A DNA stretch of 64,000 nucleotides. It comes from Haemophilus massiliensis (lineage in GTDB: Bacteria; Pseudomonadota; Gammaproteobacteria; Enterobacterales; Pasteurellaceae). Location of the stretch: NCBI GenBank assembly GCA_000752995.2, contig LM994632.1, positions 50,037 to 114,036 on the forward strand. Direction: 5' to 3'. The notes beneath the pieces are model-generated. The model worked only from the letters and a program-made list of their open reading frames with translations. It did no database searches and was not told where the DNA came from. This document shows, piece by piece, positions 843 to 16,176 of this stretch. A program made the position numbers and the translations under genes. The first letter of the stretch is position 1; each line of letters begins with the position of its first letter.

Positions 843-1790
843 TTATTCTCGGCATTCCGGAACCGGCGTTTTTAATGGCTTCCTAGCAAAAAAGCGATGA
901 ATATTTTCCACCACTAATTTTCCCATCGCACAACGCGTGGACACTGTCGCGCTGCCAATATGCGGCGTGACCACAACATTATCCTTATGCAGTAGTGCGT
1001 TGGGAACAATCGGTTCATCGGCAAATACATCCAAACCAGCTCCGGCAATTACGCCGTTTTGAATAGCATGGACTAAGGCCTGCTCGTCAACGACGCTACC
1101 TCTGGCAATATTAATCAGAATACCGTTTTTACCTAAAGCCTGTAAGACTTCTGTATTTATGAGATGTTTTGTCGCTTTTCCGCCGGATACACAGAGGATT
1201 AAAAAGTCACTGTGTTGTGCTAATGCTTTTAAATCAGAATAATAGGTGTAAGGAGAATTCCGTTCCCGTTCCAGTGAGAAATAAGCAATTTCCATGTTAA
1301 AAGCGACCGCTCTTTTAGCAACCGCCTGACCAACACGACCGAAACCTACGATGCCGAGACGACTATCACTTACTTTAATAGCCAATGGATACGATACTTT
1401 CCCCCAGTTGCCGCTTTCGATAAAACGTTGTGCCGCATTAAGCCGACGCGCCGTAGCCAAGATGAGCGCCATACCCAAGTCGGCTACGTCATCGGTTAAG
1501 ACATCCGGCGTATGTGTCACCTTTATGCCATTTGCCAATGCGGCCTGCATATCGACACCGTCATATCCGACTCCGAATACAGCAATCAATTTTAATTGCG
1601 GAAATTGGCTAATCAGTTCTGCGGGCACCTGTGATTCGCCACTCGCTAAAATAACCTGCACATTTGCGGATATTCTCTCTAATTGTGTTGATGACATTTC
1701 CTCATAAACATAAATATCATAGTCGGAAGAAAGCATATCAACAACGAGATCGGGAACTTTTGCGACCCTTAAAATCATCGGATTTGCCAT
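843..1790 (-). CDS. D-isomer-specific 2-hydroxyacid dehydrogenase
   Basis: A 315-residue cytosolic NAD(P)-dependent dehydrogenase interconverting a 2-hydroxyacid and a 2-oxoacid. The Rossmann motif GFGRVG lies near residue 150. The catalytic triad of the family is visible: Arg in NIARGSVVD, Glu in FADEP and His in TPHIGSAT. Length is normal. The short N-terminal half and overall pattern resemble glyoxylate/hydroxypyruvate reductases (GhrB/HprA type). It starts at an ATG behind AGAGGT and is the last gene of the region-2 array, 12 bases after the TIM-barrel gene. The substrate is unknown; a C3 or C4 hydroxyacid or hydroxypyruvate is a reasonable inference from context. Confidence 0.85.
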   Translation of the reverse strand: MANPMILRVAKVPDLVVDMLSSDYDIYVYEEMSSTQLERISANVQVILASGESQVPAELISQFPQLKLIAVFGVGYDGVDMQAALANGIKVTHTPDVLTDDVADLGMALILATARRLNAAQRFIESGNWGKVSYPLAIKVSDSRLGIVGFGRVGQAVAKRAVAFNMEIAYFSLERERNSPYTYYSDLKALAQHSDFLILCVSGGKATKHLINTEVLQALGKNGILINIARGSVVDEQALVHAIQNGVIAGAGLDVFADEPIVPNALLHKDNVVVTPHIGSATVSTRCAMGKLVVENIHRFFARKPLKTPVPECRE

Positions 1791-1802
1791 AATATATTAC
1801 CT

Positions 1803-2705
1803 CTAAAGTCTGGATAATGCGGATTTTAAAAACTCTCTGCACTGCTTTTCATGCAACCAAAGATCATCATACTCATTTGTTCTGACTTCAATCGCTACAC
1901 TCAGTTCATTAAAAATATTCGGTATTTCTAATGTTTGTGCGGTTGCTAGAATCGGCATAACGGTTTCTTCGGTAAGAAATCCCGGAGGCCCCAGTTTAAT
2001 ATGAAAATCACCGTACATAGCGTGATGCTTATCTAATACCGCATTAGATAAATGTAACTGAGAAATAAACGGTGACGCTGTTTTCAATGATTCTTCAGGT
2101 ATTTCCTCGTTTAAGCAAGTGTGTGCGCTGTCCCATGCGATATATAAATTAGGGCATTCATTGCGGAAGCTTCGAATCCAGTTCACGGTTTCACCGGTAA
2201 GACCAATCAGCTGCTTTTTATGTGCAAAACAGTCCAATGGTTCAATTTGTAACACCATATTCTTAAACTGCTTGGTTTCCTGACTGATTTGACAGAGAGA
2301 ATCCGCCAATGCACGTTTGGCTTCATATTGTTGGTAGGACACGGGCTTCGCACCACTTACAATAGAAAGTTTGGTAGCACCAGTTTCTGCGGCAAGATGA
2401 ACAAGCTCTTTAGCTCTTTTCACTGATCTCGTTCTTAGCGCGCTGTCAAGACTGGCCAGGTTTAAATGTTCTTTTAATAATTCAAACGTCATCCATTGCA
2501 CAATGTTTAAATGATTTTTTTCTGCGAGACTGCGAACTTGGCATATTGTATCCGAATTGGTAAGCATACCAAGTTCAATAGTACTATAGAAATCAAAGTC
2601 TATGATTTTATTGACAATGTCCGGCACATTTTTCTCGTTTGTCATTAACGGAAAAAATAACTCCGGAATCAGTAAAGAAGGTGACAATCGATTATAGCGC
2701 TTCAT
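1803..2705 (-). CDS. Xylose-isomerase-like TIM-barrel protein
   Basis: A 300-residue member of the AP-endonuclease-2/xylose-isomerase-like TIM-barrel superfamily (sugar phosphate isomerases/epimerases, some decarboxylases). The usual metal ligands can be placed: Glu in LQIEPLD, Asp in IAWDSAH, His in SQLHLSN and Glu in FNELS near the end. The start ATG follows a strong AGGAGGG. It sits between an MFS permease gene (5 bases away) and a 2-hydroxyacid dehydrogenase gene. The superfamily includes 3-oxo-isoapionate decarboxylase (OiaC), which yields L-erythrulose. Because the same array carries kinase and isomerases fitting L-erythrulose use, that role is one possibility, but sequence alone does not establish it. 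Confidence 0.75.
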   Translation of the reverse strand: MKRYNRLSPSLLIPELFFPLMTNEKNVPDIVNKIIDFDFYSTIELGMLTNSDTICQVRSLAEKNHLNIVQWMTFELLKEHLNLASLDSALRTRSVKRAKELVHLAAETGATKLSIVSGAKPVSYQQYEAKRALADSLCQISQETKQFKNMVLQIEPLDCFAHKKQLIGLTGETVNWIRSFRNECPNLYIAWDSAHTCLNEEIPEESLKTASPFISQLHLSNAVLDKHHAMYGDFHIKLGPPGFLTEETVMPILATAQTLEIPNIFNELSVAIEVRTNEYDDLWLHEKQCREFLKSALSRL

Positions 2706-2709
2706 TTAT

Positions 2710-4023
2710 TTACCCTCCTACCCTTTGTGTTTGAACTGAAGTGGGCACTTTATTAAAGTTAATGCAAAGTGTCCCTAAAATATAACATCCGGCACAAATG
2801 CCAAAATAGGTCAGAACGCTGGAAAAACTACCGGTATATTCAAGAATAATCCCCACTAAGATCGGAACGAGAATACCTGCGCAGCTGTTTGCCATATTCA
2901 TAAAACCGCCGACAATACCTACTCTGTCTTTTGGCGCCAAAATTGCCGGAAAGCTCCAATACAAACTGCCGAACATCATAAAGAATGCCGCTGTCCCCAG
3001 TAGCCATACCGCAGTTGAAGGATCTGTCGTGGACGGTAGCATTAAAAAAACCACCAGGCCAACAATGCCTGATACCGATAATAAGCTTTTCAAAGCAATA
3101 TTATGGCTAACGCCTCTTTTCACCAAAAAATCAACAAAAAAACCACTAAACAGGCAACCCAATGTACCCAGAATAAAAATGAGAAAAGTTGAATTACCGA
3201 TACTCTTTAAATCCAGCCCTTGTGCTTGCGCTAGATAATTTGGTCCCCAAGTTAATAATCCCCAGTAAACCATTCCCCAAGATGCGCGCCCCAGCATGAT
3301 AGCAATCATGGTAAACCAAGAAATACCGATTCCTTTGGTCGGTTCATTATTTGTAACTATACCGGGAAGTTCATTTCCTTCTTCGATATGAGTAAGTTCC
3401 GCTTGGTTGACTTTGTTGTGTTCGGAAGGCTTATCACGCAAGATCCGCCAAGAAAGCATTCCTAATGACATAGTAAAAAGACCAACTACAACGAAAGCAA
3501 CTCGCCATGAATCAAACAGAACGATTAAATGTGCAACGATAATGCCTCCCAAGGCAACACCTAAAGGACTACCCGAATCCATGATTACGGCACCACGTCC
3601 TCGTTCCGATGAAGTCAGCCATGCCGAACTGAGTTTGGCGCCACTTGGTGAAATCGGGCTTTCTGCTGCACCTAAACCGATTCGGGCCAGAATCATCGAA
3701 ATACCACCAGTGGCAAAGCCGATAATCGTTTGGAAAAATCCCCAACCGACAAGCGATCCGGTAATGACTTTTCGAGGACCGTAACGATCCAATAACCAGC
3801 CACCCGGCACTTGAAGCAAAGCGTACGACCAAAAGAAACTACTGAGAATAAGCCCTTGCATAACCGGTGAAAGATTAAACTTTTCTTTAATATAAGGCAT
3901 GCCAATAGACAGTGTGATTCTATCCATTAGGTTTACTGCCATTAAAAAGAACATGACGGTAAATATTACCCAACGAAAGGATGTAGACTTTTCATTTGTA
4001 GAATAAATTTTTTGATTATTCAT
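2710..4023 (-). CDS. MFS permease, anion:cation symporter type (paralogue 1)
   Basis: An inner-membrane major facilitator protein of about 437 residues with roughly 12 hydrophobic segments. The loop motif LLDRYGPRKV and the N-terminal NLMDRITLSIGMP are typical of the ACS family, which carries galactonate, glucarate, tartrate and similar sugar acids by proton symport. An upstream GTG frame exists, but the ATG at 4023 has GGAG eight bases before it, so I use that. It is strikingly similar to the permease at 11901-13163: long blocks such as QGLILSSFFW and ERGRGAVIMD are shared. Substrate is unknown; a small sugar acid is likely from family and context. Confidence 0.85.
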   Translation of the reverse strand: MNNQKIYSTNEKSTSFRWVIFTVMFFLMAVNLMDRITLSIGMPYIKEKFNLSPVMQGLILSSFFWSYALLQVPGGWLLDRYGPRKVITGSLVGWGFFQTIIGFATGGISMILARIGLGAAESPISPSGAKLSSAWLTSSERGRGAVIMDSGSPLGVALGGIIVAHLIVLFDSWRVAFVVVGLFTMSLGMLSWRILRDKPSEHNKVNQAELTHIEEGNELPGIVTNNEPTKGIGISWFTMIAIMLGRASWGMVYWGLLTWGPNYLAQAQGLDLKSIGNSTFLIFILGTLGCLFSGFFVDFLVKRGVSHNIALKSLLSVSGIVGLVVFLMLPSTTDPSTAVWLLGTAAFFMMFGSLYWSFPAILAPKDRVGIVGGFMNMANSCAGILVPILVGIILEYTGSFSSVLTYFGICAGCYILGTLCINFNKVPTSVQTQRVGG

Positions 4024-4092
4024 AATATACACTCCAAATATTGGACGTCGGAAATATGAATCGCAATTTAAATATATTCAGTGGGTTTAATT

Positions 4093-5160
4093 TTATTTAC
4101 TTAGAATCTTTGCCATAGCGAAATATATTTTTTCAACCAGTTTATCACCGAAAATAATTTGGTATTGATTAGCAATAGTAAATATGCCTTTTGTTTTATC
4201 CACTTTCTCAATCGCTAATTTATCGGCTTTTAATTCATTATCCACTACAACTCGAATACGTGTGGCGCAATGAGTCAGTGCCTGGATATTTTCTTTTCCA
4301 CCCAGACAAGCAATTAATTGCTCTGCGATATGAGTGTATTCATTCGTACTATTGCCCGATGAATGTACTGATAATGCATTTAACGCGTTTTGAATCAGAG
4401 ACGGAAATTTTTTACCATCCCATGCACTGCGTCCAACAAATAAGCCGTCAATATGGGGCTGAATAATAAGTTTATTACTATTTTCAGGATTAACGCTGCC
4501 GCCATATAAAACCGGAATCTTATGACCGTCTTCAGCAAATAGTTCTGATAAACATTGTTTGATTACCGCATGTTTTTCATTAGCATATTCGGCGGTCGCC
4601 GGTATGCCGTCTTTACCGATTGCCCATACCGGTTCGTAGGCAATCCACAATTTTGACAACTGATGTTTTTTAACGCCGTATAATCCGATTTTAAGTTGTG
4701 TTCGTAAGACCTCATCAGACAGATTATAATTTTTCTGTTCTAGGGTTTCACCGATGCAAAGTAATGTAGTAAATCCATGGCTCAGGGCAGAAATAACTTT
4801 TTCATTTTCCTCTTGATCTGTTTCTTTCATCACATGACGGCGTTCGGAGTGCCCAATCATTACAAGCGTTGCGCCTGCTTCTTTTAACATCGGCGGAGAA
4901 ATTTCACCGGTAAATTGTCCATTGTCATTAGCATTCATATTTTGGGCGCCGATAATAATTTTTTTATTATTTTTAATGGAATCTACAACCGTTGTGGCGT
5001 CTTTAATACAGGTATAAGAGGGGATAACAAATAGTTCGATATCATAATCTGTTTTGAAATGATCTACCGCGTGCGAAAGTGCGGTTAAATATTTGATCGT
5101 TTCTGCATTTCCTTTATACATTTTCAAATTGGTACCGAAATAGATTTTTTTATTTTTCAT
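4093..5160 (-). CDS. Triosephosphate isomerase-like enzyme fused to a PTS EIIB domain
   Basis: A single 355-residue frame with two parts. Residues 1 to about 255 form a triosephosphate isomerase fold with all catalytic landmarks: NLKMY (Lys), IGHSERR (His), AYEPVWAIG (Glu and loop 6) and LYGGSVN (phosphate loop). After a short Ser/Asn-rich linker, residues ~277-355 read as a glucose-type PTS EIIB domain: LGGKENI, then HCATRIRV with the phosphorylatable cysteine, then GIF and QIIFGD. No EIIC or EIIA is encoded in the window. Neighbouring kinase (DhaK/L) and RpiB-like genes suggest the L-erythrulose-1-P isomerase (LerI) branch of the TIM family rather than housekeeping TpiA. That substrate is an inference; the fusion is read directly. 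Start ATG follows AGGA. Confidence 0.85.
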   Translation of the reverse strand: MKNKKIYFGTNLKMYKGNAETIKYLTALSHAVDHFKTDYDIELFVIPSYTCIKDATTVVDSIKNNKKIIIGAQNMNANDNGQFTGEISPPMLKEAGATLVMIGHSERRHVMKETDQEENEKVISALSHGFTTLLCIGETLEQKNYNLSDEVLRTQLKIGLYGVKKHQLSKLWIAYEPVWAIGKDGIPATAEYANEKHAVIKQCLSELFAEDGHKIPVLYGGSVNPENSNKLIIQPHIDGLFVGRSAWDGKKFPSLIQNALNALSVHSSGNSTNEYTHIAEQLIACLGGKENIQALTHCATRIRVVVDNELKADKLAIEKVDKTKGIFTIANQYQIIFGDKLVEKIYFAMAKILSK

Positions 5161-5163
5161 CGC

Positions 5164-5838
5164 TTATTCCTTATTTTTTATTAATACTCTGCAAGGTGAA
5201 CCGTCGGTTTTTTCTATTGCGATAGGTATCATTAAGGCATCGACCACTGGACCGGTAATTTCTTTTGTATTACAGATATATTCAACTAAAGTGACACCTT
5301 TCTTTAATAAATGGTGATGCGTGACATGCTTGGTTAACGGTTTTTCCATCGTGCCGGTTAACCAACCGCGAATCGGATAATCCTGCGGAAAATCAAAGGC
5401 GATAATGTCTAATTCCTTTTCTGCTAAATAAGCAGCACCCTCAAAGGTGATATAAGGTGCGTTTGCCCAAAACTGTTTAGAATTATAACTATAATGCGTA
5501 TCCCAGCAGGTTTTGAAAATAATTTTAGAAACCGGGTGCTCTGGGAAAACAGCATCTAACATCTGTTCCGTAATAGCAAGATTATCGACGATACATGCAG
5601 ATAAATCTAATACATGAAATTCGCCGATATAGGTTTCAATCGGAATATCCAGAATATCGTAAGCTGATTTTTGGATATGGCTTAGCGCATCCATATGAGT
5701 AAACGCGTGGCAAGATACCTGTAACTGTGTCGCTTCAAACAGGTCACCGCGGTCAAAACTGCCTTTTTTTTCAATATTAGCCTGCCAACGGATATGGTCC
5801 GCAGAAATAGGCATACTGAGGTCAATCCATTTATTCAT
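5164..5838 (-). CDS. Cyclase-family (kynurenine formamidase-like) hydrolase
   Basis: About 224 residues of the PF04199 cyclase/formamidase family, metal-dependent hydrolases acting on amides, lactones or related bonds. The signature HAFTHMDALSH (HxxTHxDxxxH) is near residue 50, and a late THHHLLKKGVTLVEY block is typical. The start is the ATG at 5836-5838 behind AAGGAG, not the upstream TTG. It lies 3 bases upstream of the TIM-EIIB gene and 12 bases downstream of the TRAP permease gene, so it is very probably co-transcribed with both. Its reaction is unknown. Opening a lactone or processing a sugar-acid derivative would suit the context. Confidence 0.75.
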   Translation of the reverse strand: MNKWIDLSMPISADHIRWQANIEKKGSFDRGDLFEATQLQVSCHAFTHMDALSHIQKSAYDILDIPIETYIGEFHVLDLSACIVDNLAITEQMLDAVFPEHPVSKIIFKTCWDTHYSYNSKQFWANAPYITFEGAAYLAEKELDIIAFDFPQDYPIRGWLTGTMEKPLTKHVTHHHLLKKGVTLVEYICNTKEITGPVVDALMIPIAIEKTDGSPCRVLIKNKE

Positions 5839-5850
5839 ATACAATTCTCC

Positions 5851-7143
5851 TTACGGAAAGAGTAAATTCGGTAAGAATGTACTAAATTCCGGCACCAAAA
5901 TTAACAAAACCAATAATCCAAACAGCGACAGCAAAAACGGTAGGCTTTCTTTTAATACTCTCATCGGTTCGCACTCGGCAATATTAGCGGATAAGAAAAT
6001 TAGATAACCGACAGGTGGTGTAACTAAACCAATCATTAGATTTAATACAATGACTAAACCAAAATGAATAGGATTAATTCCGAATTGGTTGACAATTGGC
6101 ATAAATACAGGAACAAGAATGGTCAATGCTGCCGTAGGATCCATAATCATTCCGATAAACAGGACAATAACATTAATAAGAATCAACGCAGATAAAGGGC
6201 TATCACAAACAGCAGAGACCCAAACGGCAACCTGATGACTGATTTGTAAGCGCGCGATTAGCCAAGCAAAAATTGAAGAAGCACCGACAATCAGCATGAC
6301 GGTTATAGTACCTTTTAGTGATGAGATTAAAGCTTTCTTCAGCAATTCCATGCTGAGCTCTTTATAAACGAAAGTTCCGACTAAATAGGCATAAACCACG
6401 GATACAGCGCCAGCTTCCGTTGCGGTGAACATGCCCGAAATAATACCGTAAAGAATAATAATCGGACAAAGTAACGCCCACACGGCATCTTTGGCGCTCT
6501 CCTTCACTTCTCTCCAGTTGAAATCCGTAGCCGCGTTACCGTATTTATATATTTTACTTAATATGAAAGTCACGAGAATTAGGGTTAAAGCGATCATAAT
6601 TCCGGGAATAATGCCCGACATAAACATTTTCCCGACCGATACACCGGCTCCGGCCAGTGCAGCGAACACTATCATGGGTACGCTGGGAGGAATAATCGGC
6701 CCGATAATTGACGCAGATTGAGTCAGTGCCGCAGAAAAATCTGCGGGATAACCGCTCTTTTTCATTGCCGGAATCAAAGAACTCCCAATTGCCGCCGTCG
6801 ATGCCACTGCCGAACCGCTGATTGAACCAAAAAACAAACTGGAAAAAATATTGATATAGGCCAATGAACCTTTCCAGCGTCCGATTAAAGAAGTGACAAA
6901 ACGGATAATACGGGTTGTAATGCCGCCTACGCTCATGAGTTCACCGGCAAGGAAAAAGAATGCTAATGCTTGTAGCGCATTAGTATCAAGCCCTTGCATA
7001 ACCTGTTGTGCCACAATGGTTATCGGAATATTCGGCAGGAAGTAAAATAATGTAACGATTGAGGCGAATATAATACTGTAAAAAAGCGGAAGCCCTAATA
7101 CCGTTAGAATAAACATCACGCCGAGCAGAACAATAAATGACAT
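5851..7143 (-). CDS. TRAP transporter large permease subunit (DctM)
   Basis: Inner-membrane DctM-type subunit of a tripartite ATP-independent periplasmic transporter, 430 residues and almost wholly hydrophobic (about 12 segments). The family block with MKKSGYPADF and GPIIPPSVPMI is present near residues 125-155. It shares the base at 7143 with the DctQ gene, the usual tight coupling for subunits of one complex. Such systems use an ion gradient to import dicarboxylates, sialic acid, gulonates and other sugar acids delivered by the DctP protein. The substrate is probably a carboxylated sugar, judged by neighbours only. Confidence 0.92.
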   Translation of the reverse strand: MSFIVLLGVMFILTVLGLPLFYSIIFASIVTLFYFLPNIPITIVAQQVMQGLDTNALQALAFFFLAGELMSVGGITTRIIRFVTSLIGRWKGSLAYINIFSSLFFGSISGSAVASTAAIGSSLIPAMKKSGYPADFSAALTQSASIIGPIIPPSVPMIVFAALAGAGVSVGKMFMSGIIPGIMIALTLILVTFILSKIYKYGNAATDFNWREVKESAKDAVWALLCPIIILYGIISGMFTATEAGAVSVVYAYLVGTFVYKELSMELLKKALISSLKGTITVMLIVGASSIFAWLIARLQISHQVAVWVSAVCDSPLSALILINVIVLFIGMIMDPTAALTILVPVFMPIVNQFGINPIHFGLVIVLNLMIGLVTPPVGYLIFLSANIAECEPMRVLKESLPFLLSLFGLLVLLILVPEFSTFLPNLLFP

Positions 7144-7619
7144 TATAATTCCCTCACTTTTTGAGTTTTAGCTAAAGAGAAAAAGGCGATAATAATTCTA
7201 ACCATCTCTAAAGAGAGACATAGAATAAACGGAATATATACCCATGCTTTTGAAATCTTAAATGCCGAGTAATAGCTTTTCAAATTCATTGAATATACTT
7301 TTACACCACCTTTTACTAATAAAAACAGGCAGATGAGCATAATGATATAAAGTAGAGAAGATAATAGCCAACCATATTTAAATCTCTCAAAAATCATAAT
7401 CCTCAACATCGGAACTTGTATTTGAGTTGTCGTTAATACTCCGAATAAAATCATCCAGGCATAACAAAATCTTAAAAACTCTTCTGCCCACGGAAAGGAA
7501 ACATTAACGACATATCTTGTTATAACTTGAATAAATGTCATCACGACAATAATGAGAAAGAAGAGACAGCCTAATGATAAAAATGTTTTATTAATAAATT
7601 TCTCATATTGCTCAACCAT
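7143..7619 (-). CDS. TRAP transporter small permease subunit (DctQ)
   Basis: A 158-residue four-segment membrane protein with the DctQ pattern of ITRYVVNVSFPWAEE in the second quarter, followed by FLRFCYAWM. It acts with the large permease, whose gene it overlaps by one base, and with the periplasmic binding protein whose gene lies 32 bases upstream. Gene order P-Q-M is the standard one. Base composition is rather AT-rich, like the rest of this part of the array. Confidence 0.92.
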   Translation of the reverse strand: MVEQYEKFINKTFLSLGCLFFLIIVVMTFIQVITRYVVNVSFPWAEEFLRFCYAWMILFGVLTTTQIQVPMLRIMIFERFKYGWLLSSLLYIIMLICLFLLVKGGVKVYSMNLKSYYSAFKISKAWVYIPFILCLSLEMVRIIIAFFSLAKTQKVREL

Positions 7620-7651
7620 AATTATTGACCTCCCCTAACCTAAATTTTCGA

Positions 7652-8629
7652 TTATTGAGTTTCCGTAATCTTGGAAATCATATCTTGACCGAATTTTTTT
7701 GCATAATCGTCCCAGGCTTTCTGTGCGCCCGATTGGAAAGTAGTTACATCAGGGGTTGTTTCAACTTCCATTCCTTGCTGCTTTAATTTATCTAAATAAA
7801 CTTTATTTTCTTCTATGTTCAGTTTTTTCTCTAATTCAGCACCTTCTTTAGCGGCTTGTAATAGGATATTCTGATCTTCTTTATCTAGACTGGTAAAACG
7901 ATCAAGATTCATAGACATCGGCGCGGCGGTATAAGCATGATGAGTTAAAGAAAGATATTTTTGCACCTCTTGCAGGTTATTGTTATAAATGTGGTGCACG
8001 GGGTTTTCTTGACCATCAATGACACCGGTTTTTAGTGAAAAATACACTTCGTTGAATGGCATCGGTGTCGGATTTGCTCCCCACTCTTTGAAAGCCGCGA
8101 TATGTGCTGGATTCGGTGTGGTCCGTAATTTTAAATGGGAAAGATCGGTAACCGTTTTGATCGGTCTTTTACTATTGGTAATATCTCTAAATCCGATTTC
8201 ATAAAACGCCAAACCTTTTAAATTGGATTCTTCTAATGAAAGTAAAAGTTGCTCGCCTATTTCGCCATTGAGCACTTTTTCTACATGCGCCTCATTTCTG
8301 AATAAGAAAGGCAGATCAAGTAAATTTAGTTTTTCATTAAATGTGGTGTAATACGGATTACCAACGACAACAATATCAATTGTTCCCATACGTGTACCGT
8401 CAATTTGAGTATCAGAATTACCTAACTCACTATTTGGGTGTAATTTAATCGTAATACGCCCATTTGATAACTCATTGGCGCGTTTGGCCATAAATTCGGT
8501 AGCTTTGGTTACCGTATCACTCGGCGAACCATAATGACTTAATGCGAAAGTATGTTGTCCGGCAGCAAACACCGAACCGGATAGACATAGTGAAATAAAA
8601 ACTGTTGAGAACAAAGTTGATTTTGTCAT
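7652..8629 (-). CDS. TRAP transporter solute-binding protein (DctP)
   Basis: Periplasmic extracytoplasmic binding protein of 325 residues. An N-terminal signal peptide (Lys at residue 3, hydrophobic run, cleavage probably after SVFA) is followed by the DctP fold. The conserved arginine that salt-bridges a ligand carboxylate is in LKLRTTPNP near residue 175, and the block VIDGQENP follows. This arginine supports a carboxylic-acid ligand. The gene leads the P-Q-M trio and is 36 bases downstream of the rpiB-like gene. A C4 to C6 sugar acid is the most likely ligand, though the exact compound cannot be read from sequence. Confidence 0.92.
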   Translation of the reverse strand: MTKSTLFSTVFISLCLSGSVFAAGQHTFALSHYGSPSDTVTKATEFMAKRANELSNGRITIKLHPNSELGNSDTQIDGTRMGTIDIVVVGNPYYTTFNEKLNLLDLPFLFRNEAHVEKVLNGEIGEQLLLSLEESNLKGLAFYEIGFRDITNSKRPIKTVTDLSHLKLRTTPNPAHIAAFKEWGANPTPMPFNEVYFSLKTGVIDGQENPVHHIYNNNLQEVQKYLSLTHHAYTAAPMSMNLDRFTSLDKEDQNILLQAAKEGAELEKKLNIEENKVYLDKLKQQGMEVETTPDVTTFQSGAQKAWDDYAKKFGQDMISKITETQ

Positions 8630-8665: not shown

Positions 8666-9118
8666 TTAACATTTGCTGTATTTAGTATCAATTTCCTTTA
8701 TTCTGGCCACTTTTGGCGCGGAACCTCCACCAACAAAATCCGACTCTAACCATACTTTAAGTAATGATTTAGCGAGTTCTACACCAATTACCCGTTCACC
8801 GAAGCAAATAATTTGCGCATCATTACTTTTTCTTGCCCGCTCCGCTGAAAAAACATCATGACAAACGGCCGCTCTTATACCGGGAATCTTATTGGCAGTA
8901 ATAGCCATACCGATACCCGTGCCACAGGTTAGAATACCTCGGTCATATTTGCCTTCCGCCACGGCTAAAGCAACTTGTTCGGCAACATCCGGATAAAGCA
9001 CCACTGCACCGGCATTAGCACCGAAGTCTTCATATTCAATCCCTAATGAATCTAAATACTTCATTAATTCAACTTTTAAATTATAGGCAGCTTCATCACA
9101 GCCAATTGCAATCTTCAT
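8666..9118 (-). CDS. RpiB-family sugar-phosphate isomerase
   Basis: About 150 residues, matching RpiB/LacAB length. The N-terminus MKIAIGCDEAA, the catalytic cysteine in LTCGTGIGMAI near residue 65 and the NDAQIICFGER block identify the family (ribose-5-P, allose-6-P or tetrulose-4-P isomerases). The start chosen is the second ATG, seven bases after AGGAGG; the first ATG is too close to the ribosome site. Next to a TIM homologue and a DhaK/DhaL kinase, it fits D-erythrulose-4-P isomerase (DerI/EryI type), producing D-erythrose-4-P. Ordinary ribose-5-P isomerase B remains possible. Confidence 0.85.
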   Translation of the reverse strand: MKIAIGCDEAAYNLKVELMKYLDSLGIEYEDFGANAGAVVLYPDVAEQVALAVAEGKYDRGILTCGTGIGMAITANKIPGIRAAVCHDVFSAERARKSNDAQIICFGERVIGVELAKSLLKVWLESDFVGGGSAPKVARIKEIDTKYSKC

Positions 9119-9149
9119 AGTCATACCTCCTAATTAATTTGATGTTAAT

Positions 9150-10103
9150 TTACATTTTCGTAAAATTAAGAATGTTGTTAACATTAGTTGCCGTCGTTGC
9201 AATCACATTAATAATTCCCGTTCTTAGTGCCCCCAGAATGGCCATTGCTTTTGTATTCTCCGAAGCAATACCTATAACACAAGGAATTTCTCTCAAATCT
9301 TCTAGGCTCAATCCGATTACCCTATTACTCATTACAGTATCGACTAATTCCCCTTGCAGATTAAAAAATCCATAACCGGCGATTTCTCCGATAACTCCTT
9401 CATTAATTCTTGCATCGGTAATTTCTTTCGGTGTAAACCATCCCAACTGAACCATATAACTGTTCTCATTCATATCGCCGATACCGACCAGCGCAACATC
9501 CGCTTTTCTGGCGCGATCTAATGTATCCTTAATCACCCCATTTTTCATAAAGATGCTTCTGAATTCTTTATTTTCTAAATAAGCCGGCGCATAGAGTGTT
9601 TCATAGTTTCCATTAAATCGTTTGGCCAAATTGCGGCAGATATGATCAGCGTCAACTGGTGCACCGATACGCTGGGTACCGCCAATACTGCAAATGAATT
9701 TGCAGTTTTTTTCCGGAGAAATCCCGACGTATTCACCAATTGCAGCAACATTTCGCCCTTGACCGACAGCAACCGTCATACCGTCTTTGAGTACGTTTAC
9801 TAAGTATCCGTTCACTAACGCCGCCACTTGTTTTCGTTGCTCTTTTTCACTGTATTCATCAACTGCAATTAATGCTCTTTGAATACCGAATTGTTCAATC
9901 AATTTTCTTTCTAATTGAGAAGTAAATATTGGATGATACTTAACGTTTATTTCAACAATGCCTTCTTGACGCGCTTTTTTTAATAAGCGACCGACTTTTA
10001 CTCTTGAAATATTGAACCGTTGAGCGATCTCTTCTTGAGTAAGCTCATGTTCATAGTAAGCAATTGCAATTTCAGTTAATAAATCACCATCTTCAGATTT
10101 CAT
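9150..10103 (-). CDS. SorC-family sugar-binding transcriptional regulator
   Basis: A 317-residue regulator: an N-terminal helix-turn-helix (TQEEIAQRFNISRVKVGRLL, roughly residues 20-45) and a large C-terminal SorC/CggR-type effector domain that binds phosphorylated sugars. The block VALVGIGDMN and the C-terminal GALRTGIINVIATT are typical. An upstream TTG frame was rejected in favour of the ATG at 10101-10103, which has AGGAAC before it. It is embedded in the array, so it probably controls its own operon, with a pathway intermediate such as a tetrulose phosphate as the effector (inference). Repeats at 15922-15960 are the best candidate operators. Confidence 0.88.
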   Translation of the reverse strand: MKSEDGDLLTEIAIAYYEHELTQEEIAQRFNISRVKVGRLLKKARQEGIVEINVKYHPIFTSQLERKLIEQFGIQRALIAVDEYSEKEQRKQVAALVNGYLVNVLKDGMTVAVGQGRNVAAIGEYVGISPEKNCKFICSIGGTQRIGAPVDADHICRNLAKRFNGNYETLYAPAYLENKEFRSIFMKNGVIKDTLDRARKADVALVGIGDMNENSYMVQLGWFTPKEITDARINEGVIGEIAGYGFFNLQGELVDTVMSNRVIGLSLEDLREIPCVIGIASENTKAMAILGALRTGIINVIATTATNVNNILNFTKM

Positions 10104-10119
10104 AATCGTTCCTATCGTA

Positions 10120-10956
10120 TTAAAGCGAATCAATATATTGTTTTGATGTAATAAGTGTTTTTTCTATAAGAGAAAAATCAATTTTTTTATCTTTTCTTTT
10201 TGGTGTTGAATCCAGTTCACGATAAATCCGCAAGGGGATCTCAAAGCTGCAAGGAATATTTTTTTGTTTAATTAATGGAATGATTTTTTGATAATTAATG
10301 AGCCCTTTTCCTTCAATAGGAATAAACTCAAATTGATTGTCTATTATGCTGACATCTTTAATATGAAAATACTGTGAATAATTTAAGGCTTCAATAGATT
10401 GTTTTTCTACATCTAAGTTTCTATCATAAGTCACCATATTACCTGGATCAAAATTCAGTGCATAATTATCTGAAGCAAGTGCTTCCAATAATTCAACCCC
10501 ATCTTGCAATGTAATAAACGCATTAAAATTATAATCTCCTGCATTCTCCAAGCATAAAATACAGCTAGTTTCCTCTAATATCGGAGTTAATAATCGTAAA
10601 TTTTCTATTAATTTTTTTCCATTTTCACGTTTTGTTGTACATACATTAATATATTTCACACCTATTGATTGTGCAAAATAAACTCGCGGTGCAAACACTT
10701 CTAAGAAATTATCCGCCGCTAAGTCCATCGTACATCCTAGTGCTAAAGTAGATAATTGATATTTTTCTTTTAATATATTTATGTTATGCGCATTTTCTTG
10801 ACTGAATAAATCTTGTTTCAGATTACCGACATAGCCCTGATTATATGCCAATTCAAAGTAATTAAAACCGCACTTTTTAATAGACGCTAATGTGGTTTCA
10901 ATATCATACCCATCATAAATAGATGTATTTACCGCTAACTTAAGTGCCTCACTCAT
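10120..10956 (-). CDS. Xylose-isomerase-like TIM-barrel protein, AT-rich
   Basis: A 278-residue sugar phosphate isomerase/epimerase-like protein. Likely metal ligands: Glu in LCLENAGD, Asp in LNFDPGN, His in YFHIKD and Glu in CSFEIP. The frame extends further upstream, but that would overlap the amidohydrolase gene. The ATG at 10956 has AAGGAAA before it, so I use it, leaving a 13-base gap. Codon use is clearly richer in A and T than in flanking genes, suggesting a separate history. It is distant from the other TIM-barrel protein at 1803-2705. The reaction is unknown; epimerisation, isomerisation or decarboxylation of a keto-sugar acid are all possible for the family. Confidence 0.72.
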   Translation of the reverse strand: MSEALKLAVNTSIYDGYDIETTLASIKKCGFNYFELAYNQGYVGNLKQDLFSQENAHNINILKEKYQLSTLALGCTMDLAADNFLEVFAPRVYFAQSIGVKYINVCTTKRENGKKLIENLRLLTPILEETSCILCLENAGDYNFNAFITLQDGVELLEALASDNYALNFDPGNMVTYDRNLDVEKQSIEALNYSQYFHIKDVSIIDNQFEFIPIEGKGLINYQKIIPLIKQKNIPCSFEIPLRIYRELDSTPKRKDKKIDFSLIEKTLITSKQYIDSL

Positions 10957-10969
10957 ATATTTTCCTTCG

Positions 10970-11890
10970 TTACAATTTGATGTTGTAATATTTTTTTGCG
11001 TTTGAGAAAAAGAGTTTATACTGCTCGTCATAGCTATAACTTTTCACACTCTCTTTAAATCCGTCAAAAATAGTGTCTAAGTCGCCACATAAACTATCAA
11101 CCGGGAAATTACTGGCAAACATCGCTCGATCCGTACCAAAAATATTGATCGTTTCCTGAATAATCCATCGGTTATCTTCAATATTCCACAGTTTATTTGG
11201 TAACCCGATACCTGAAATTTTCACTACAATATTAGGCACATCGGAAAGTTGGGACATGGCTTTATGCCATCCCGATAAACCTTCCGGCGAACGATCCGCG
11301 GGTAATCCGGTATGGTTTAAAATTATCAGTGTTTGTGGAAAATCCAACGCTAATTGTTTCGCTTCATGTAAGTTCCACCACGGCGTTTGCAGATCAAAAT
11401 TAAGTTGATATTTGTGTAGTAAAGCATACCCTTGACGCCATTTATCGTTACTCATCAAGGTTCTAAACCCCATTTCCGCTTCTCTTAATGATATCGGTCC
11501 TGCCGGTTTGTGTCTGACGCTTCTAACTAATGGATAGCCTGCCTGACGCTTTAATATTTCTTCAATGTCATCATGGTGTAACCATGCTTGCGCGACAACA
11601 GCATTCGGCATCCCAAATTTATCCGCAACGGTATGGATATAAGCCGTTTCTCCGATAGGATCATTAGGATCCCATTCCGCATCAATATAAACCGTGGCAA
11701 CAACATTGTGTTTCGGCGTTGCGTCTTTTAAATAATCTGTCGGTAGATAATCTTTTTTGATTGCGCTGTAATCCCCGTATCTAAACGGAATTAAAACGTC
11801 CGGCGCCAGCCACGGATGTGGGTTAATCTGAGGTTGCCAAAAATGCTGATGTGCATCAATCATTGGGCCATTATATAATTCGGTATTCAT
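10970..11890 (-). CDS. Amidohydrolase-2 / sugar lactonase-like hydrolase
   Basis: A 306-residue TIM-barrel metal hydrolase of the COG3618 type. The N-terminal metal motif MIDAHQHFW is near residue 10, and RSVRHKPAG, ILNHTGLP and ASNFPVD near residue 240 are hallmark blocks. Characterised relatives hydrolyse L-fucono-, L-rhamnono- or L-galactono-lactones, or 2-pyrone-4,6-dicarboxylate. Its place between an MFS permease and a TIM-barrel enzyme suggests it opens an imported or internally formed sugar lactone before further oxidation. Start ATG at 11890 follows GGAGGG. Confidence 0.78.
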   Translation of the reverse strand: MNTELYNGPMIDAHQHFWQPQINPHPWLAPDVLIPFRYGDYSAIKKDYLPTDYLKDATPKHNVVATVYIDAEWDPNDPIGETAYIHTVADKFGMPNAVVAQAWLHHDDIEEILKRQAGYPLVRSVRHKPAGPISLREAEMGFRTLMSNDKWRQGYALLHKYQLNFDLQTPWWNLHEAKQLALDFPQTLIILNHTGLPADRSPEGLSGWHKAMSQLSDVPNIVVKISGIGLPNKLWNIEDNRWIIQETINIFGTDRAMFASNFPVDSLCGDLDTIFDGFKESVKSYSYDEQYKLFFSNAKKYYNIKL

Positions 11891-11900
11891 TTTATCCCTC

Positions 11901-13163
11901 CTATCTGTTTTCTTTGCTTAACTTAATACTTAATGTTCCTAATATGTATATCAGTGAACAGCCGGAAAAAAACAGCAGTACATGATCGTAATTTCTAGAT
12001 TGACCTAGAATAATACCGACTAAAATCGGAACGGCAATTCCACCGATACTACCGGCCATGTTCATTATTCCGCCAACGATACCGACTTTACTTTTTGGTG
12101 CGAGTAATGCCGGAAAGCTCCAGTATAAGCTTCCCCACATTAAGAAAAAGGCGGCAATGGATAAAACCAGTATTGCGACAATCGGATCTTGCATACTAGG
12201 TAAGAGATAAAAAGCCGCCAGTGTGCTGATACCGGATAGCGTTAAAACTGTTTTTAATACGACTTTCTGAGCAAATCCTTTTTTGACCAGAATGTCAGAA
12301 ATAAAACCACCGCACAATGACCCGAACGTACCGCACAGAAAAATAATGAAGGTGGCATTACCGATACTTTTTATATCAAATCCTCTTGCTTGAGCCAGAT
12401 AACTTGGACCCCAAGTCAATAAACCGAAAAACATCATCGCCCAAGCAGCACGACCGAATAAAATAGCGATGAGAGAGCGATAATCTACACCAATTCCTTT
12501 TAAAACAGGTTCGGAATCGACCGCACTTTGTGCCGTCTGGCTTTCGATTAATCGCAATTCCTGCCGATTCACACCATGATGTTCCCGCGGGGTATCGCGT
12601 AAAAACTTCCAAGCAATAAACCCTAATAAAATCGTAGCAACACCGGCGATAGCAAAGACAATTCGCCAAGAACCAATGCTGGCAAGCATATAAGCAATGA
12701 TAATACCACCGAGAGCTGCGCCAAGCGGACCGCCACAATCCATAATAACCGCGCCACGACCACGTTCCTGAGCTGATAACCATGTTGCATTAAGTTTTCC
12801 GCCGGAAGGAAAAAGAGGCGCTTCAGCGGCACCGAGCATAAATCGGGCCGCAAGTAAAGAAATACCACCGGTTGAGAAAGCGGCTAACGTTTGAAAAACA
12901 CCCCATAACACGGTCGAACCAGTAATAATTTTTCGCGGTCCATATTTATCGATTAGCCAACCACCGGGAATCTGAAGTAAAGCATAGGCCCAGAAAAAAC
13001 TGCTCAATATAAGCCCTTGGGTTTCAGGCGAAAGATCAAATTCCTGCGCTATAGTCGGCATAGCAATAGAAAGAGAAATCCGATCAACTAAATTTATCAC
13101 CACCAATAAAAAGATAATACCAAAAACAAACCAACGGACATTCGACGCTTTTTCTTTCATCAT
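11901..13163 (-). CDS. MFS permease, anion:cation symporter type (paralogue 2)
   Basis: Inner-membrane permease of 420 residues, about 12 hydrophobic segments, with the ACS-family pattern NLVDRISLSIAMP, LIDKYGPRKI and ERGRGAVIMD. It is a close paralogue of the permease at 2710-4023, with many identical stretches over the whole length. It lies between dhaL (54-base gap containing a small hairpin) and the lactonase-like gene. Uptake of a sugar acid or lactone-derived acid by proton symport is likely. Two such permeases plus a TRAP system in one array suggest either several substrates or a merger of two gene sets. Confidence 0.86.
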   Translation of the reverse strand: MMKEKASNVRWFVFGIIFLLVVINLVDRISLSIAMPTIAQEFDLSPETQGLILSSFFWAYALLQIPGGWLIDKYGPRKIITGSTVLWGVFQTLAAFSTGGISLLAARFMLGAAEAPLFPSGGKLNATWLSAQERGRGAVIMDCGGPLGAALGGIIIAYMLASIGSWRIVFAIAGVATILLGFIAWKFLRDTPREHHGVNRQELRLIESQTAQSAVDSEPVLKGIGVDYRSLIAILFGRAAWAMMFFGLLTWGPSYLAQARGFDIKSIGNATFIIFLCGTFGSLCGGFISDILVKKGFAQKVVLKTVLTLSGISTLAAFYLLPSMQDPIVAILVLSIAAFFLMWGSLYWSFPALLAPKSKVGIVGGIMNMAGSIGGIAVPILVGIILGQSRNYDHVLLFFSGCSLIYILGTLSIKLSKENR

Positions 13164-13217: not shown

Positions 13218-13847
13218 CTAATGCTTATGTGCATATTCGGACATGTATTTCAGAATAAAAGACATTGAAACGGCTCCCGGATCGACATATCCCAAAGAGC
13301 GCTCTCCCAAGCTTTTGGCACGTCCGAAAACGGCAATCTGATTGCGTGTGTTCTCGGCACCTTCCGCCGCTGCTTGAGCTACCGAAGTCAACGCAACGGT
13401 TAAATCCTCATTTTTAACCGATTCGGCTTGTTTTTCCGCTGCGACCAAAGCATCAACCATCGTTTTATCACCCGGCTTTGCACCACCGCGCTCAAATACC
13501 GCTTTGGCGCCAGCCGAAAGAAATTGATAAAGAGTTTCCGCATTAAATTGCGCCTGTCCGGTCAATACTTTTCCGCCGGCTCTGAATAAGGTGCCAAAAA
13601 TTGCGCCGGATGCCCCGCCCATACTAGACATCATTTTTGTACCCGCCGTTAAAAATAACTCTCCAATATCTTTCGGCTGGAATGTATCGGTACAGAGTAA
13701 ATCACGTACCGCAGCAAATCCTCGCTGCATGCCTAAACCATGGTCGCCGTCTCCAATTTTCAAATCCAGTTCGGTTAAGTGCGGTTCACTTTCCACCATT
13801 TTTTCTGCGGTATATAAAAGTAGTGCTTTGGTTTCGGTTACATTCAT
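13218..13847 (-). CDS. dhaL: Dihydroxyacetone/erythrulose kinase, nucleotide-binding subunit DhaL
   Basis: A 209-residue DhaL subunit, close to the family norm of ~210. The metal/nucleotide motif LKIGDGDHG with its aspartates is near residue 28, and MMSSMGGASGAIFGT and the late GRAKSLGERS-type block confirm it. It phosphorylates the ketose held covalently by DhaK. The start is the ATG at 13847 behind GGAG, immediately after dhaK's stop, not the upstream in-frame ATG. No DhaM phosphoryl donor is encoded in the window, so whether it uses ATP or PTS phosphate is open. Context with LerI- and DerI-like isomerases favours L-erythrulose as substrate over dihydroxyacetone. Confidence 0.88.
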   Translation of the reverse strand: MNVTETKALLLYTAEKMVESEPHLTELDLKIGDGDHGLGMQRGFAAVRDLLCTDTFQPKDIGELFLTAGTKMMSSMGGASGAIFGTLFRAGGKVLTGQAQFNAETLYQFLSAGAKAVFERGGAKPGDKTMVDALVAAEKQAESVKNEDLTVALTSVAQAAAEGAENTRNQIAVFGRAKSLGERSLGYVDPGAVSMSFILKYMSEYAHKH

Positions 13848-13848
13848 T

Positions 13849-14856
13849 TTATTTTCTCCATTTGAAACTATCACAAGGCATATCGTAAAGTTTTTGTAGC
13901 TCATCATCTAAACGAAACAGCGTGACCGAATAACCCGCCATTTCCTGTGATGTACAGTAACTGCCGATCAACGTATCATGAATTTGAATGCCACGTTGAG
14001 TCAGCTGTTGATGAACTTTTCTGTTGGCAATAAAAAGTTCCGTATAAGTCGAGGCACCAAGATTATTAATCGTGACACAGACGCGATCACCAGCCTTTAG
14101 GCCGATATCGTTGCAAATAGATTCAATAATTTCGGTGTTGATTTCGTCTGCTGTAGCCATTTTTTGACGGCGAACCCCCGGCTCACCATGGATGCCCATA
14201 CCTAGTTCCAATTCATCATCATCTAATTCAAAATTAAATTTACCGGTTTGCGGAATCGAACAGGCACCGAGCGCCACCCCCATGGTTCTGGTATTAAAAT
14301 TGGCTTTTGCCGTAACCGCATGTAATTTTTCAAGATCATAACCCGCCTGCACTGCCGCACCAGCAATTTTCAGTATATACATGTCACCGGCAACTCCACG
14401 ACGATCTGACATGCGGGATAATGGTGCGGCGGAAATATCATCAGTAACTCGTACGGTTTTAACCTGAATACCTTCTTCCTCTAAAAGTTCGGCCGCAATA
14501 TCGAAATTCATATTGTCGCCAGCATAGTTTCCATACACAAATAATACGCCGTTGCCTTTCTGCGCGGCTTTGGTCGTTTCAATAATAATATCCGGTGACG
14601 GTGAAGCGAAAATTTCCCCCAATGCCGCGGCATCTGCTAAACCTTTTCCCACATAACCGGCAAACATCGGTTCGTGACCGCTTCCGCCACCGGTAACGAC
14701 GACAACTTGATTTTCCGCAATATCATGACGGATGACGCCACTCACACCTTCAACTTTAAGTAGTTTTCCTCCGCAAGCATAAATCAAACCTTCTAACTGT
14801 TCTGCCGGAACATCATTCGGACTATTCAATAATTTTTTAGGTTTTCTATTGCTCAT
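13849..14856 (-). CDS. dhaK: Dihydroxyacetone/erythrulose kinase, substrate-binding subunit DhaK
   Basis: A 335-residue DhaK subunit. The glycine-rich GGGSGHEPMFAGYVG is near residue 55, and GIHGEPG near residue 215 carries the histidine that binds the ketone of the substrate covalently. GNYAGDNMNFD is also conserved. It partners DhaL, whose gene starts one base after the dhaK stop, giving translational coupling. In the homologous L-erythrulose kinase (LerK) the two parts are commonly fused; here they are separate. Product would be L-erythrulose-1-P (inferred) or dihydroxyacetone phosphate. The gene follows the PdxA2-like gene by 31 bases. Confidence 0.9.
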   Translation of the reverse strand: MSNRKPKKLLNSPNDVPAEQLEGLIYACGGKLLKVEGVSGVIRHDIAENQVVVVTGGGSGHEPMFAGYVGKGLADAAALGEIFASPSPDIIIETTKAAQKGNGVLFVYGNYAGDNMNFDIAAELLEEEGIQVKTVRVTDDISAAPLSRMSDRRGVAGDMYILKIAGAAVQAGYDLEKLHAVTAKANFNTRTMGVALGACSIPQTGKFNFELDDDELELGMGIHGEPGVRRQKMATADEINTEIIESICNDIGLKAGDRVCVTINNLGASTYTELFIANRKVHQQLTQRGIQIHDTLIGSYCTSQEMAGYSVTLFRLDDELQKLYDMPCDSFKWRK

Positions 14857-14887: not shown

Positions 14888-15904
14888 TTATTTAGATTTA
14901 AGGACGCCTTGTCCCATGCGAACGGCAATATTAAAAGCGCTTTCAAATGCAGTTGGAATAGCGACGTTTTTACCGTACAAGTCATAAGCCGTACCATGAT
15001 TTGCCGTAGCGATAGGGATTGGAATGCCGCCTTGAACGGTAACGCCACGTTCGAATCCTAATAATTTTAATGCTGTTGAGAATTGATCATGATACATTGA
15101 CACGACACCATTAATACCTAAACGTTCAACTTCCCGCATTGTGGTATCGCTCGGGAAAGGACCGTAAAGATCGATACCGTATTGTTCTTTTGCTTTCTCA
15201 ATAGCCGGTTTAATAATGGTTATTTCTTCATCACCAAACACACCGCCTTCACCACCGTGCGGATTCAACGCCTGTACGGCAATTTTAGGTCGTTTGACAC
15301 CTGCTTGCGTCAATGAACGATTGAGCAAAAGAATACAGTCAATGACTGATTTTATAGATAAATTCGGCACAATATCTTTAAACGGAATATGTGATGTGAC
15401 ACGTGCCGCCCAAATACTATCGACAACATTTAATTCACAGACAAAATCACGATAATCCGTTTGATCCGCAAACCAATGCAACTCATCGCGATACTGTAAT
15501 CCGCCTTTGTGCATCGCCTGCTTATTCAACGGTGCAAAACAAATTGACTGTACGTAGCCGGCTTGCGCCAAATCCACCGCTTTTTTCATCGTTTCCAGCA
15601 TATAAACACCACTTTGTTCGGTTGCCGTTCCGTATTCAAAAGGATAAGGATGAGAACACTGATGATGAATAAGTGCGGGTATATTTTCTTTAAAAGTATA
15701 ACTTGCTAAAGTTTCACTGGAAATTTCATCAAATTCGACATTTACCTGCGCAATTTCCATACCTTTCAGTAATTCCCGTTTATCCGCAATAATCAGAACA
15801 TTGGCTTTATTTCTTTGTTCGTTTTGAGCTAATAATTTTGCAACCAGTTCAGGTCCCACTCCGGCAGGATCACCAAGTAATAAGGCTAAGGTCGGTTTTG
15901 TCAT
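14888..15904 (-). CDS. PdxA2-like 4-phosphate sugar-acid dehydrogenase
   Basis: About 338 residues of the PdxA family. Visible motifs: LLGDPAGVGPE at the N-terminus, ALNPHGGEGG with FGDEE (NAD/metal region, about residue 205), MYHDQ and ATANHGTAYD near the C-terminus. The catabolic branch PdxA2/DtnB-like oxidises D-threonate- or D-erythronate-4-P with decarboxylation to dihydroxyacetone phosphate, whereas biosynthetic PdxA acts in vitamin B6 synthesis. The catabolic branch is favoured by position at the head of a sugar-acid operon. The start used is ATG 15902-15904 behind GGAG rather than an upstream TTG. No DUF1537 kinase sits beside it; the nearest is OtnK at 22052. Confidence 0.82.
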   Translation of the reverse strand: MTKPTLALLLGDPAGVGPELVAKLLAQNEQRNKANVLIIADKRELLKGMEIAQVNVEFDEISSETLASYTFKENIPALIHHQCSHPYPFEYGTATEQSGVYMLETMKKAVDLAQAGYVQSICFAPLNKQAMHKGGLQYRDELHWFADQTDYRDFVCELNVVDSIWAARVTSHIPFKDIVPNLSIKSVIDCILLLNRSLTQAGVKRPKIAVQALNPHGGEGGVFGDEEITIIKPAIEKAKEQYGIDLYGPFPSDTTMREVERLGINGVVSMYHDQFSTALKLLGFERGVTVQGGIPIPIATANHGTAYDLYGKNVAIPTAFESAFNIAVRMGQGVLKSK

Positions 15905-15921
15905 AAGATCATCTCCATACT

Positions 15922-15935
15922 TGTTCAAAAGAACA
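15922..15935. promoter_or_regulatory. Palindrome before the PdxA2-like gene, candidate operator
   Basis: Perfect inverted repeat TGTTC-N4-GAACA just upstream of the first gene of the region-2 operon. It partly overlaps the first copy of the direct repeat AACACTAAT (15932-15940 and 15952-15960, exactly 20 bases apart). A regulator such as the SorC protein of the array could bind here; this is inference. Confidence 0.4.
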
Positions 15936-16002: not shown

Positions 16003-16176
16003 TATTGAAATCATTTAAGTTAAAAATGATAGAACTGTGATAGCTCTCTCATATTTGAAAAAATAAATAAAATGATTTTTTGAAAACTCAATGAATATTT
16101 GAGCGATCTAATATGTAATTTTGGACAAGTGACGATTTTTTATTATAACTATCGCCAAGATAGTGAAATTAACAGC

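Follow-up and report, generated by a model that had tools for sequence, protein, structure and literature searches.

Why should a sugar-phosphate isomerase carry an EIIB domain of the PTS? The question is raised by a frame in a 64,000-nucleotide stretch of Haemophilus massiliensis DNA (contig LM994632.1, positions 50,037 to 114,036 of the forward strand; hereafter the window, in whose coordinates positions are given unless a locus is named). The frame, at 4093-5160, lies on the minus strand, with its ATG at 5160 and its stop codon at 4093-4095, and encodes 355 amino acids; the plus strand over the same interval contains many stops. A preliminary description of this DNA, which named no strand, had reported one uninterrupted frame joining a triosephosphate isomerase (TIM) barrel to an EIIB domain, and on the minus strand this holds. 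The protein is organized as follows:

4375-5160, minus strand: TIM-barrel domain, residues 1-262, probably of LerI/EryH type (Pfam, PDB sequence match, catalytic residues)
4327-4374, minus strand: variable, flexible linker, residues ~263-278 (length and sequence vary among 14 fusions; pLDDT below 50 at residues 269-272)
4096-4326, minus strand: EIIB domain, residues ~279-355, sucrose/glucose type (PF00367, TIGR01996, Foldseek)
4267-4269, minus strand: codon of Cys298, the predicted phosphorylation site in the motif HCATRIR (invariant in 14/14 TIM fusions, and in 15/15 sequences when a cyclase fusion described below is included)

Pfam places a TIM match at residues 9-258 (246.6 bits, cut-off 20.1) and a PTS_EIIB match, PF00367, at residues 280-313 (47.8 bits, cut-off 27), TIGR01996 aligns over residues 275-352 (85.2 bits), and NCBIfam NF011497, with a model length of 357, covers residues 1-354 (601.6 bits, cut-off 485). 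In the structure prediction that the preliminary description had called for, the AlphaFold model of the fusion (39 aligned sequences) reached a mean pLDDT of 90.6, with residues 269-272 of the linker as the sole segment below 50. Modelled alone, the EIIB part reached a pLDDT of 95.0 and matched six EIIB chains of the PDB in Foldseek at E <= 0.001, with TMq from 0.79 to 0.90. Integrative models account for two of these chains; the six include 3ipj, 3bp3, 1o2f (complex of IIA-Glc with IIB-Glc) and 3bp8 (complex of Mlc with EIIB). Profile and fold searches (Pfam, NCBIfam, AlphaFold/Foldseek) therefore agree on the identity of the C-terminal part: with PF00367 above its cut-off, a conserved phospho-Cys motif C-x-[TS]-R and an EIIB fold, this half is a real EIIB of the glucose/sucrose type with a predicted phospho-Cys. 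The barrel is catalytically complete, as had been claimed, Lys13, His104, Glu176 and YGGSV being invariant in the 14 fusions.

The architecture is conserved and already named, yet seemingly unstudied as far as searches go. The earlier remark that no described enzyme of this make-up was known is not supported in that form: the same architecture is catalogued at full length as NF011497/PRK14905 (triosephosphate isomerase/PTS system glucose/sucrose-specific transporter subunit IIB), although this name was given by sequence, and neither a function nor a study was found in the literature searched. No paper on a TIM-EIIB fusion was found in open-licence PMC, which is no proof of absence, and the text of the Actinobacillus succinogenes genome paper, which treats the PTS genes of that species, does not contain the term triosephosphate isomerase (PMC3091790). 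The fusion can also pass as plain tpiA, as in Pasteurella multocida, where it is annotated merely as a tpiA triose-phosphate isomerase.

Among 140 Pasteurellaceae genomes, 16 passed the NF011497 cut-off; the match was full-length in 14, spread over eight genus groups, and confined to the TIM part in two (G039, G040). Conservation in orthologous clusters, raised as a check in the preliminary description, was thus confirmed, with the phospho-Cys present in 14/14 fusions; Cys298 and Arg301 are invariant in these proteins, and the linker varies. A chance join or an assembly error as the source of the fusion is rejected in view of its presence in 14 genomes. In a contig scan of 84,980 species, which required an exact match to either of two peptide patterns, retained 80 of 170 relatives and could miss fusions elsewhere, nine full TIM fusions were found among the relatives kept, all in Pasteurellaceae, together with three further loci of the family (Conservatibacter L044, Cricetibacter L046 and GY-402 L047). 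The 80 of 170 relatives kept include 68 loci of other taxa (L049-L116), and no TIM frame in these has an EIIB motif. In three of the Bacillota loci (L080, L089, L103) a related bare TIM gene is followed by genes for a DhaM-type EIIA, DhaK and DhaL, and other loci have fused or split DhaKL with no DhaM in the locus. When 394 genomes were drawn from the order, three passed the NF011497 cut-off, all of them Pasteurellaceae, and 371 had no match. None of 55 phages carries the fusion. Among plasmids, four of the 661 records with a match have one place covering at least 80%, and three of those listed are P. multocida at 67.7%. One P. multocida 'plasmid' record (L221, NZ_CP113523.1) has rpoD, dnaG and rpsU adjoining the operon and looks chromosomal.

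The fusion gene lies directly behind a cyclase gene in all 11 fused operons read, namely the window, nine named loci and one P. multocida record; the surroundings of the fusion genomes G031, G045, G107 and G109 fall outside this count. Ahead of the fusion, these operons have in common DhaK, DhaL, an AP-endonuclease-like barrel protein, a SorC regulator, RpiB, a TRAP transporter and the cyclase, whereas PdxA, MFS and amidohydrolase genes are variable; in L041 and L043 the locus ends within DhaK. In the window, the operon upstream of the fusion gene is composed of:

5164-5844, minus strand: cyclase-family protein (PF04199), just upstream of the fusion gene (Pfam; the Conservatibacter homologue bears EIIB)
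5851-8629, minus strand: TRAP transporter dctM, dctQ and dctP (Pfam DctM, DctQ, DctP)
8666-9124, minus strand: RpiB/LacAB isomerase, possibly a D-erythrulose-4-P isomerase of DerI/EryI type (PF02502, 178.6 bits; NF051858, 166.2 bits, under its cut-off of 240)
9150-10133, minus strand: SorC/DeoR-type sugar-binding regulator (PF04198, 266.6 bits)
10120-11031, minus strand: xylose-isomerase-like TIM barrel protein (PF01261, 66.7 bits)
10970-13163, minus strand: amidohydrolase (PF04909) and MFS transporter, accessory and absent from some operons (Pfam, locus comparison)
13218-14856, minus strand: the split DhaL and DhaK kinase, grouped with kinases that lack DhaM (PF02734, PF02733; DhaL tree)
14888-15928, minus strand: PdxA-family dehydrogenase, upstream of DhaK (PF04166)

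A PdxA-family gene likewise precedes DhaK in L039, L040 and the P. multocida record. For the TRAP transporter, PDB relatives gave 97 matches (best 191.3 bits), and the names of the best ones give no substrate.

The operon also bears on what the isomerase half acts on. The TIM fold with its Lys, His, Glu and phosphate loop is present as in LerI/EryH-type isomerases, and the best match among 189 PDB sequences was 11ef, the L-erythrulose-1-phosphate isomerase (LerI/EryH) of Brucella melitensis, at 182.9 bits, with Thermotoga maritima TIM close by at 178.7 bits; by Foldseek, 11ef came 12th behind plain TIMs (TMt 0.94). Because 11ef is barely ahead by sequence and ranks 12th by structure, the substrate assignment leans on the operon no less than on the fold. 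The two proteins share the TIM domain, and RpiB and DhaKL partners are encoded in the operon of the fusion; 11ef differs in having 262 amino acids and no EIIB. The TIM half is probably an L-erythrulose-1-phosphate isomerase of the LerI/EryH type, as judged by family and operon together, and the earlier reading as a C4 isomerase is likely on the same grounds. In the P. multocida operon, transaldolase and transketolase genes come next, which we take to fit D-erythrose-4-P as the product of a LerK/LerI/DerI pathway. A separate TIM match lies elsewhere in the window's genome (C6:170765). In Actinobacillus GY-402 the fusion is part of a DhaKL operon (L048), and a bare TIM paralogue lies next to genes of OtnK-like and PdxA-like type (L047). 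Since this bare paralogue is found outside the DhaKL operon, EIIB belongs with one type of operon and not with the TIM subfamily as such.

The general components of the PTS are encoded elsewhere in the genome of the window (2.6 Mb, nine contigs), which has HPr, an EI stretch beside crr, exactly one PF00358 EIIA and six PF02378 EIICs. The preliminary description had reported that the window lacks EIIC, EIIA and HPr genes, and indeed all PF02378, PF00358 and PF00381 matches lie outside it. A crr-sized PF00358 protein (frame of 166-196 aa) is present in 15/15 other genomes of the set. No EIIC partner is fused to the EIIB domain or encoded in the operon, and all six PF02378 EIICs of the genome own a B domain; service as the missing B domain of an orphan EIIC is thereby ruled out for the window's genome, which was the one covered by this check.

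Of the 16 TIM genes of NF011497 type, 14 carry EIIB on the TIM protein, and the two exceptions show other arrangements. The cyclase of Conservatibacter flavescens (L044, G039) has 314 aa and ends in a complete EIIB that includes HCATRIR (PF00367, 52.6 bits); this cyclase-EIIB fusion is located at L044:9431-10372, the TIM encoded behind it is bare, and DhaK- and DhaL-like frames were recognized by eye further upstream. In Cricetibacter (L046, G040) TIM does not extend beyond the linker; next comes a frame of 63 aa that corresponds to the start of EIIB and breaks off just past HCATR. This remnant (L046:10795-11000) is followed by transketolase-like DNA in another frame, and the start of the transketolase appears affected too. 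The DhaKL operon is retained in Cricetibacter, and the remnant implies that the module can be lost.

A like module was found on its own in a different kind of operon. A free EIIB gene (91-109 aa as scanned) directly follows a ribose-type ABC sugar permease gene in four loci:

L182:5882-6208, free EIIB gene, with an FGGY kinase in the locus
L183:5919-6206, free EIIB gene
L209:4038-4310, free EIIB gene
L210:4019-4291, free EIIB gene

That ABC permease (E <= 1e-120) is present in 4/140 genomes, with EIIB right behind it in 4/4. By eye, no EIIC lies beside the four free EIIB genes; a FruB-like frame occurs about 1.5 kb further on in L210. Three of the four were scanned, and each scored best with the GlcNAc type, suggesting that the EIIBs of the ABC operons were recruited separately and independently of the sucrose-type lineage. 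Given EIIB on the cyclase in Conservatibacter and free EIIB behind an ABC permease, the module follows non-PTS uptake operons, and so it appears to go with these operons rather than with TIM. The swap of EIIB to the cyclase in Conservatibacter and the free EIIBs in ABC operons are new here, and suggest that EIIB in Pasteurellaceae is a movable module linking such operons to sugar status. Isolated EIIB genes of about 100 aa and of glucose/GlcNAc type, with no adjoining EIIC by eye, were also seen in nine genomes of the family (L205-L208, L211, L213-L216; of these loci, L205 alone was scanned against families). A short EIIB frame in G066 (L212) was left uncounted, as it overlaps the remainder of a broken EIIC, and in G109 an EIIBC gene near a MurQ-like gene, identified by eye, has a stop after its EIIB (L181:5914-7365).

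The nearest transporter relative of the fusion's EIIB domain is the ScrA-type EIIBC of the sucrose PTS (TIGR01996), from which the fusion differs in having no EIIC and in carrying EIIB at the C-terminus of a soluble enzyme. In a tree of 35 EIIBs, the 14 TIM-linked domains and the cyclase-linked domain form one clade (100/99) nested among the N-terminal EIIBs of ScrA-like permeases from the same family; the alignment is short, several branches are long, and the enclosing forks have bootstrap values of 80-88. The 20 native sequences in this tree were those with the motif near the N-terminus, with C-terminal EIIBs of GlcNAc and glucose type left out. The window's EIIB is 51% identical over 80 residues to that of a 498-aa EIIBC of its own genome. 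As all 15 operon EIIBs fall in one clade within the ScrA-like EIIBs, there was thus apparently one recruitment from a sucrose-type EIIBC, followed by descent with one change of carrier. The TIM tree, from which 13 of the 20 unfused TIM rows were left out on account of their start pattern, is open at the base of the family clade and therefore gives no direction for the move of EIIB between TIM and cyclase.

In two close pairs, L018/L019 and L013/L015, dN/dS of the EIIB part is about 0.14 (0.05/0.35 and 0.08/0.56) versus about 0.09 for TIM, and by these low values EIIB is, as far as sequences can tell, under purifying selection. Over 91 pairs, mean dN is 0.315 for EIIB versus 0.216 for TIM and mean identity 63% versus 72%, with dS saturating in distant pairs. 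When the 15 operon EIIBs were compared with 12 native ScrA-like EIIBs, the Cys, the first Arg, N291, GG and QII were kept in all of both groups. The second Arg after the Cys is kept in 14/15 operon EIIBs, and G338 is changed in one. The operon EIIBs depart from the natives at Q326 and in the C-terminal helix, which are relaxed or changed, and they show relaxation at several positions that do not vary among the natives.

The reading we favour, and to which we give somewhat less than an even chance, is that of an operon-encoded PTS node in which EIIB would exchange phosphate with EIIA-Glc, or dock to it, and would act in trans. EIIB would here be a working domain derived from a ScrA-like EIIBC by loss of EIIC. 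Judging by its descent and conserved residues, it may take phosphate from EIIA-Glc at Cys298 and give it back; the TIM half, from family and operon, would stand between DhaKL and RpiB and pass L-erythrulose-1-P towards D-erythrose-4-P. By equilibrating with or binding EIIA-Glc, the node could couple expression of the non-PTS operon and the state of the PTS to one another (inducer exclusion, cAMP signalling), and the carrier enzyme would mainly provide co-expression and stoichiometry, perhaps place. Action in trans is suggested by the presence of the same module on the neighbouring cyclase in one relative and of a like module, free, in ABC operons; against it stands the fact that the cyclase fusion is a single case. 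The node as a whole is favoured by the crr-sized EIIA of these genomes and by the B domain that each of the six EIICs owns; it is weakened by the loss of the module in Cricetibacter, by the faster evolution of EIIB relative to TIM, by the relaxed positions of the operon EIIBs and by the separate lineage of the EIIBs in ABC operons. Flux control through EIIB phosphorylation, as proposed in the preliminary description, is unproven and is weakened by Conservatibacter, where EIIB sits on the adjacent cyclase and TIM is bare. The corresponding explanation, in which the attached isomerase is switched directly, in activity or stability, once EIIB is phosphorylated, would fit the covalent TIM fusion in 14 of the 16 such TIM genes in 140 genomes and the conserved Cys, but it is unlikely in view of the module being on the cyclase, with TIM free, in Conservatibacter and of a linker that is variable in length and sequence and of low confidence at residues 269-272. 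In TIM barrels, moreover, the end of the C-terminal helix lies on the far side of the barrel from the active site. Direct gating of the isomerase is less likely than a trans-acting node, although TIM and cyclase in one complex might allow direct control after all.

Three other roles, or the lack of one, were weighed against the trans-acting node. EIIB as a passenger from gene fusion with a scrA-like gene, without a present role, would account for its loss in Cricetibacter and its faster evolution relative to TIM; the low dN/dS in close pairs, the Cys invariant across eight genus groups and the retention of EIIB on another protein in Conservatibacter make this quite improbable. We give still less credence to EIIB standing in for DhaM and supplying phosphate to a PTS-type DhaKL kinase, an idea prompted by DhaK and DhaL being split and best matched to PTS-type subunits in the PDB, and by the lack of a DhaM in the window's genome, where PF03610 matches two proteins, both EIIAB-Man. 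That DhaM belongs to the EIIA type and donates phosphate from a His speaks against its substitution by an EIIB. In NCBIfam, the top score of both DhaK and DhaL is with the fused kinase family PRK14479; the tree sets DhaL among split and fused kinases that lack DhaM, away from E. coli and three DhaM-linked Bacillota (long branches, midpoint root); and Cricetibacter retains DhaKL with a mere EIIB remnant. EIIB as a DhaM substitute is disfavoured by these three lines of evidence. In the 15 other genomes of the set, PF03610 is found in a single frame of 327-360 aa, the size of EIIAB-Man, in seven and in more frames in eight; among the frames of these eight are some of 131-213 aa and, in G101, one of 468 aa, and these could include a DhaM. 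Finally, EIIB might be a docking tag. The enzyme would then be held either at an EIIC in the membrane, in line with the docking to a PTS permease considered in the preliminary description, or on a regulator that EIIB binds in its unphosphorylated state, in the way of EIIB-Glc and Mlc. The fold matches to the EIIB of the Mlc/EIIB complex 3bp8 and to the GlpD-PttBC integrative model 9a6a are in line with this, and the described sequestration of Mlc by dephosphorylated EIICB-Glc illustrates that an EIIB can signal by binding (PMC3901232). However, there is no B-less EIIC in the window's genome and no Mlc-type regulator among the operon genes scanned, and we consider a docking tag decidedly unlikely.

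Extended to both kinds of operon, the trans-acting node would become a carrier-independent EIIB module that wires the TRAP and ABC operons of Pasteurellaceae to the PTS, recruited at least twice and exchanging phosphate with EIIA-Glc or sequestering it, by which an induced operon could escape or tune inducer exclusion. This wider proposal is speculative and more doubtful than the node itself; if true, it would describe a counter to catabolite control that the operon itself encodes. The PTS is known to control non-PTS sugars by the binding of EIIA-Glc to permeases and by EIIA domains that permeases of the LacS type carry (PMC2848229, PMC10710835). The nearest precedent there for a non-PTS protein that has a PTS domain in a regulatory role is LacS or RafP (PMC2848229; LacS also PMC10710835), but these have an EIIA domain on a permease, phosphorylated by HPr in LacS, and here EIIB is found on catabolic enzymes. 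The DhaM-dependent DhaKLM system is alike in that PTS phosphate enters a DhaK/DhaL kinase pathway; it differs in that its DhaM is of EIIA type, and the window's genome has no DhaM. A permease-less EIIB that rides on catabolic enzymes and switches carriers between relatives would be a different way of coupling an operon to the PTS. The trans-acting node predicts that EIIA-Glc phosphorylates Cys298 and that this matters only when PTS sugars compete.

No RNA families were found at gathering score in positions 1-26000. Four near-consensus CRP sites were counted in the window versus 1.4 expected, a number reached in 5/100 shuffles and too weak to use; one of these sites, at 16036, lies upstream of the PdxA gene. 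Downstream of the fusion gene and on the same strand, positions 843-4032 hold a block of genes for an MFS protein, an AP-endonuclease-like barrel protein and a 2-hydroxyacid dehydrogenase, which is also found in Necropsobacter (L037).
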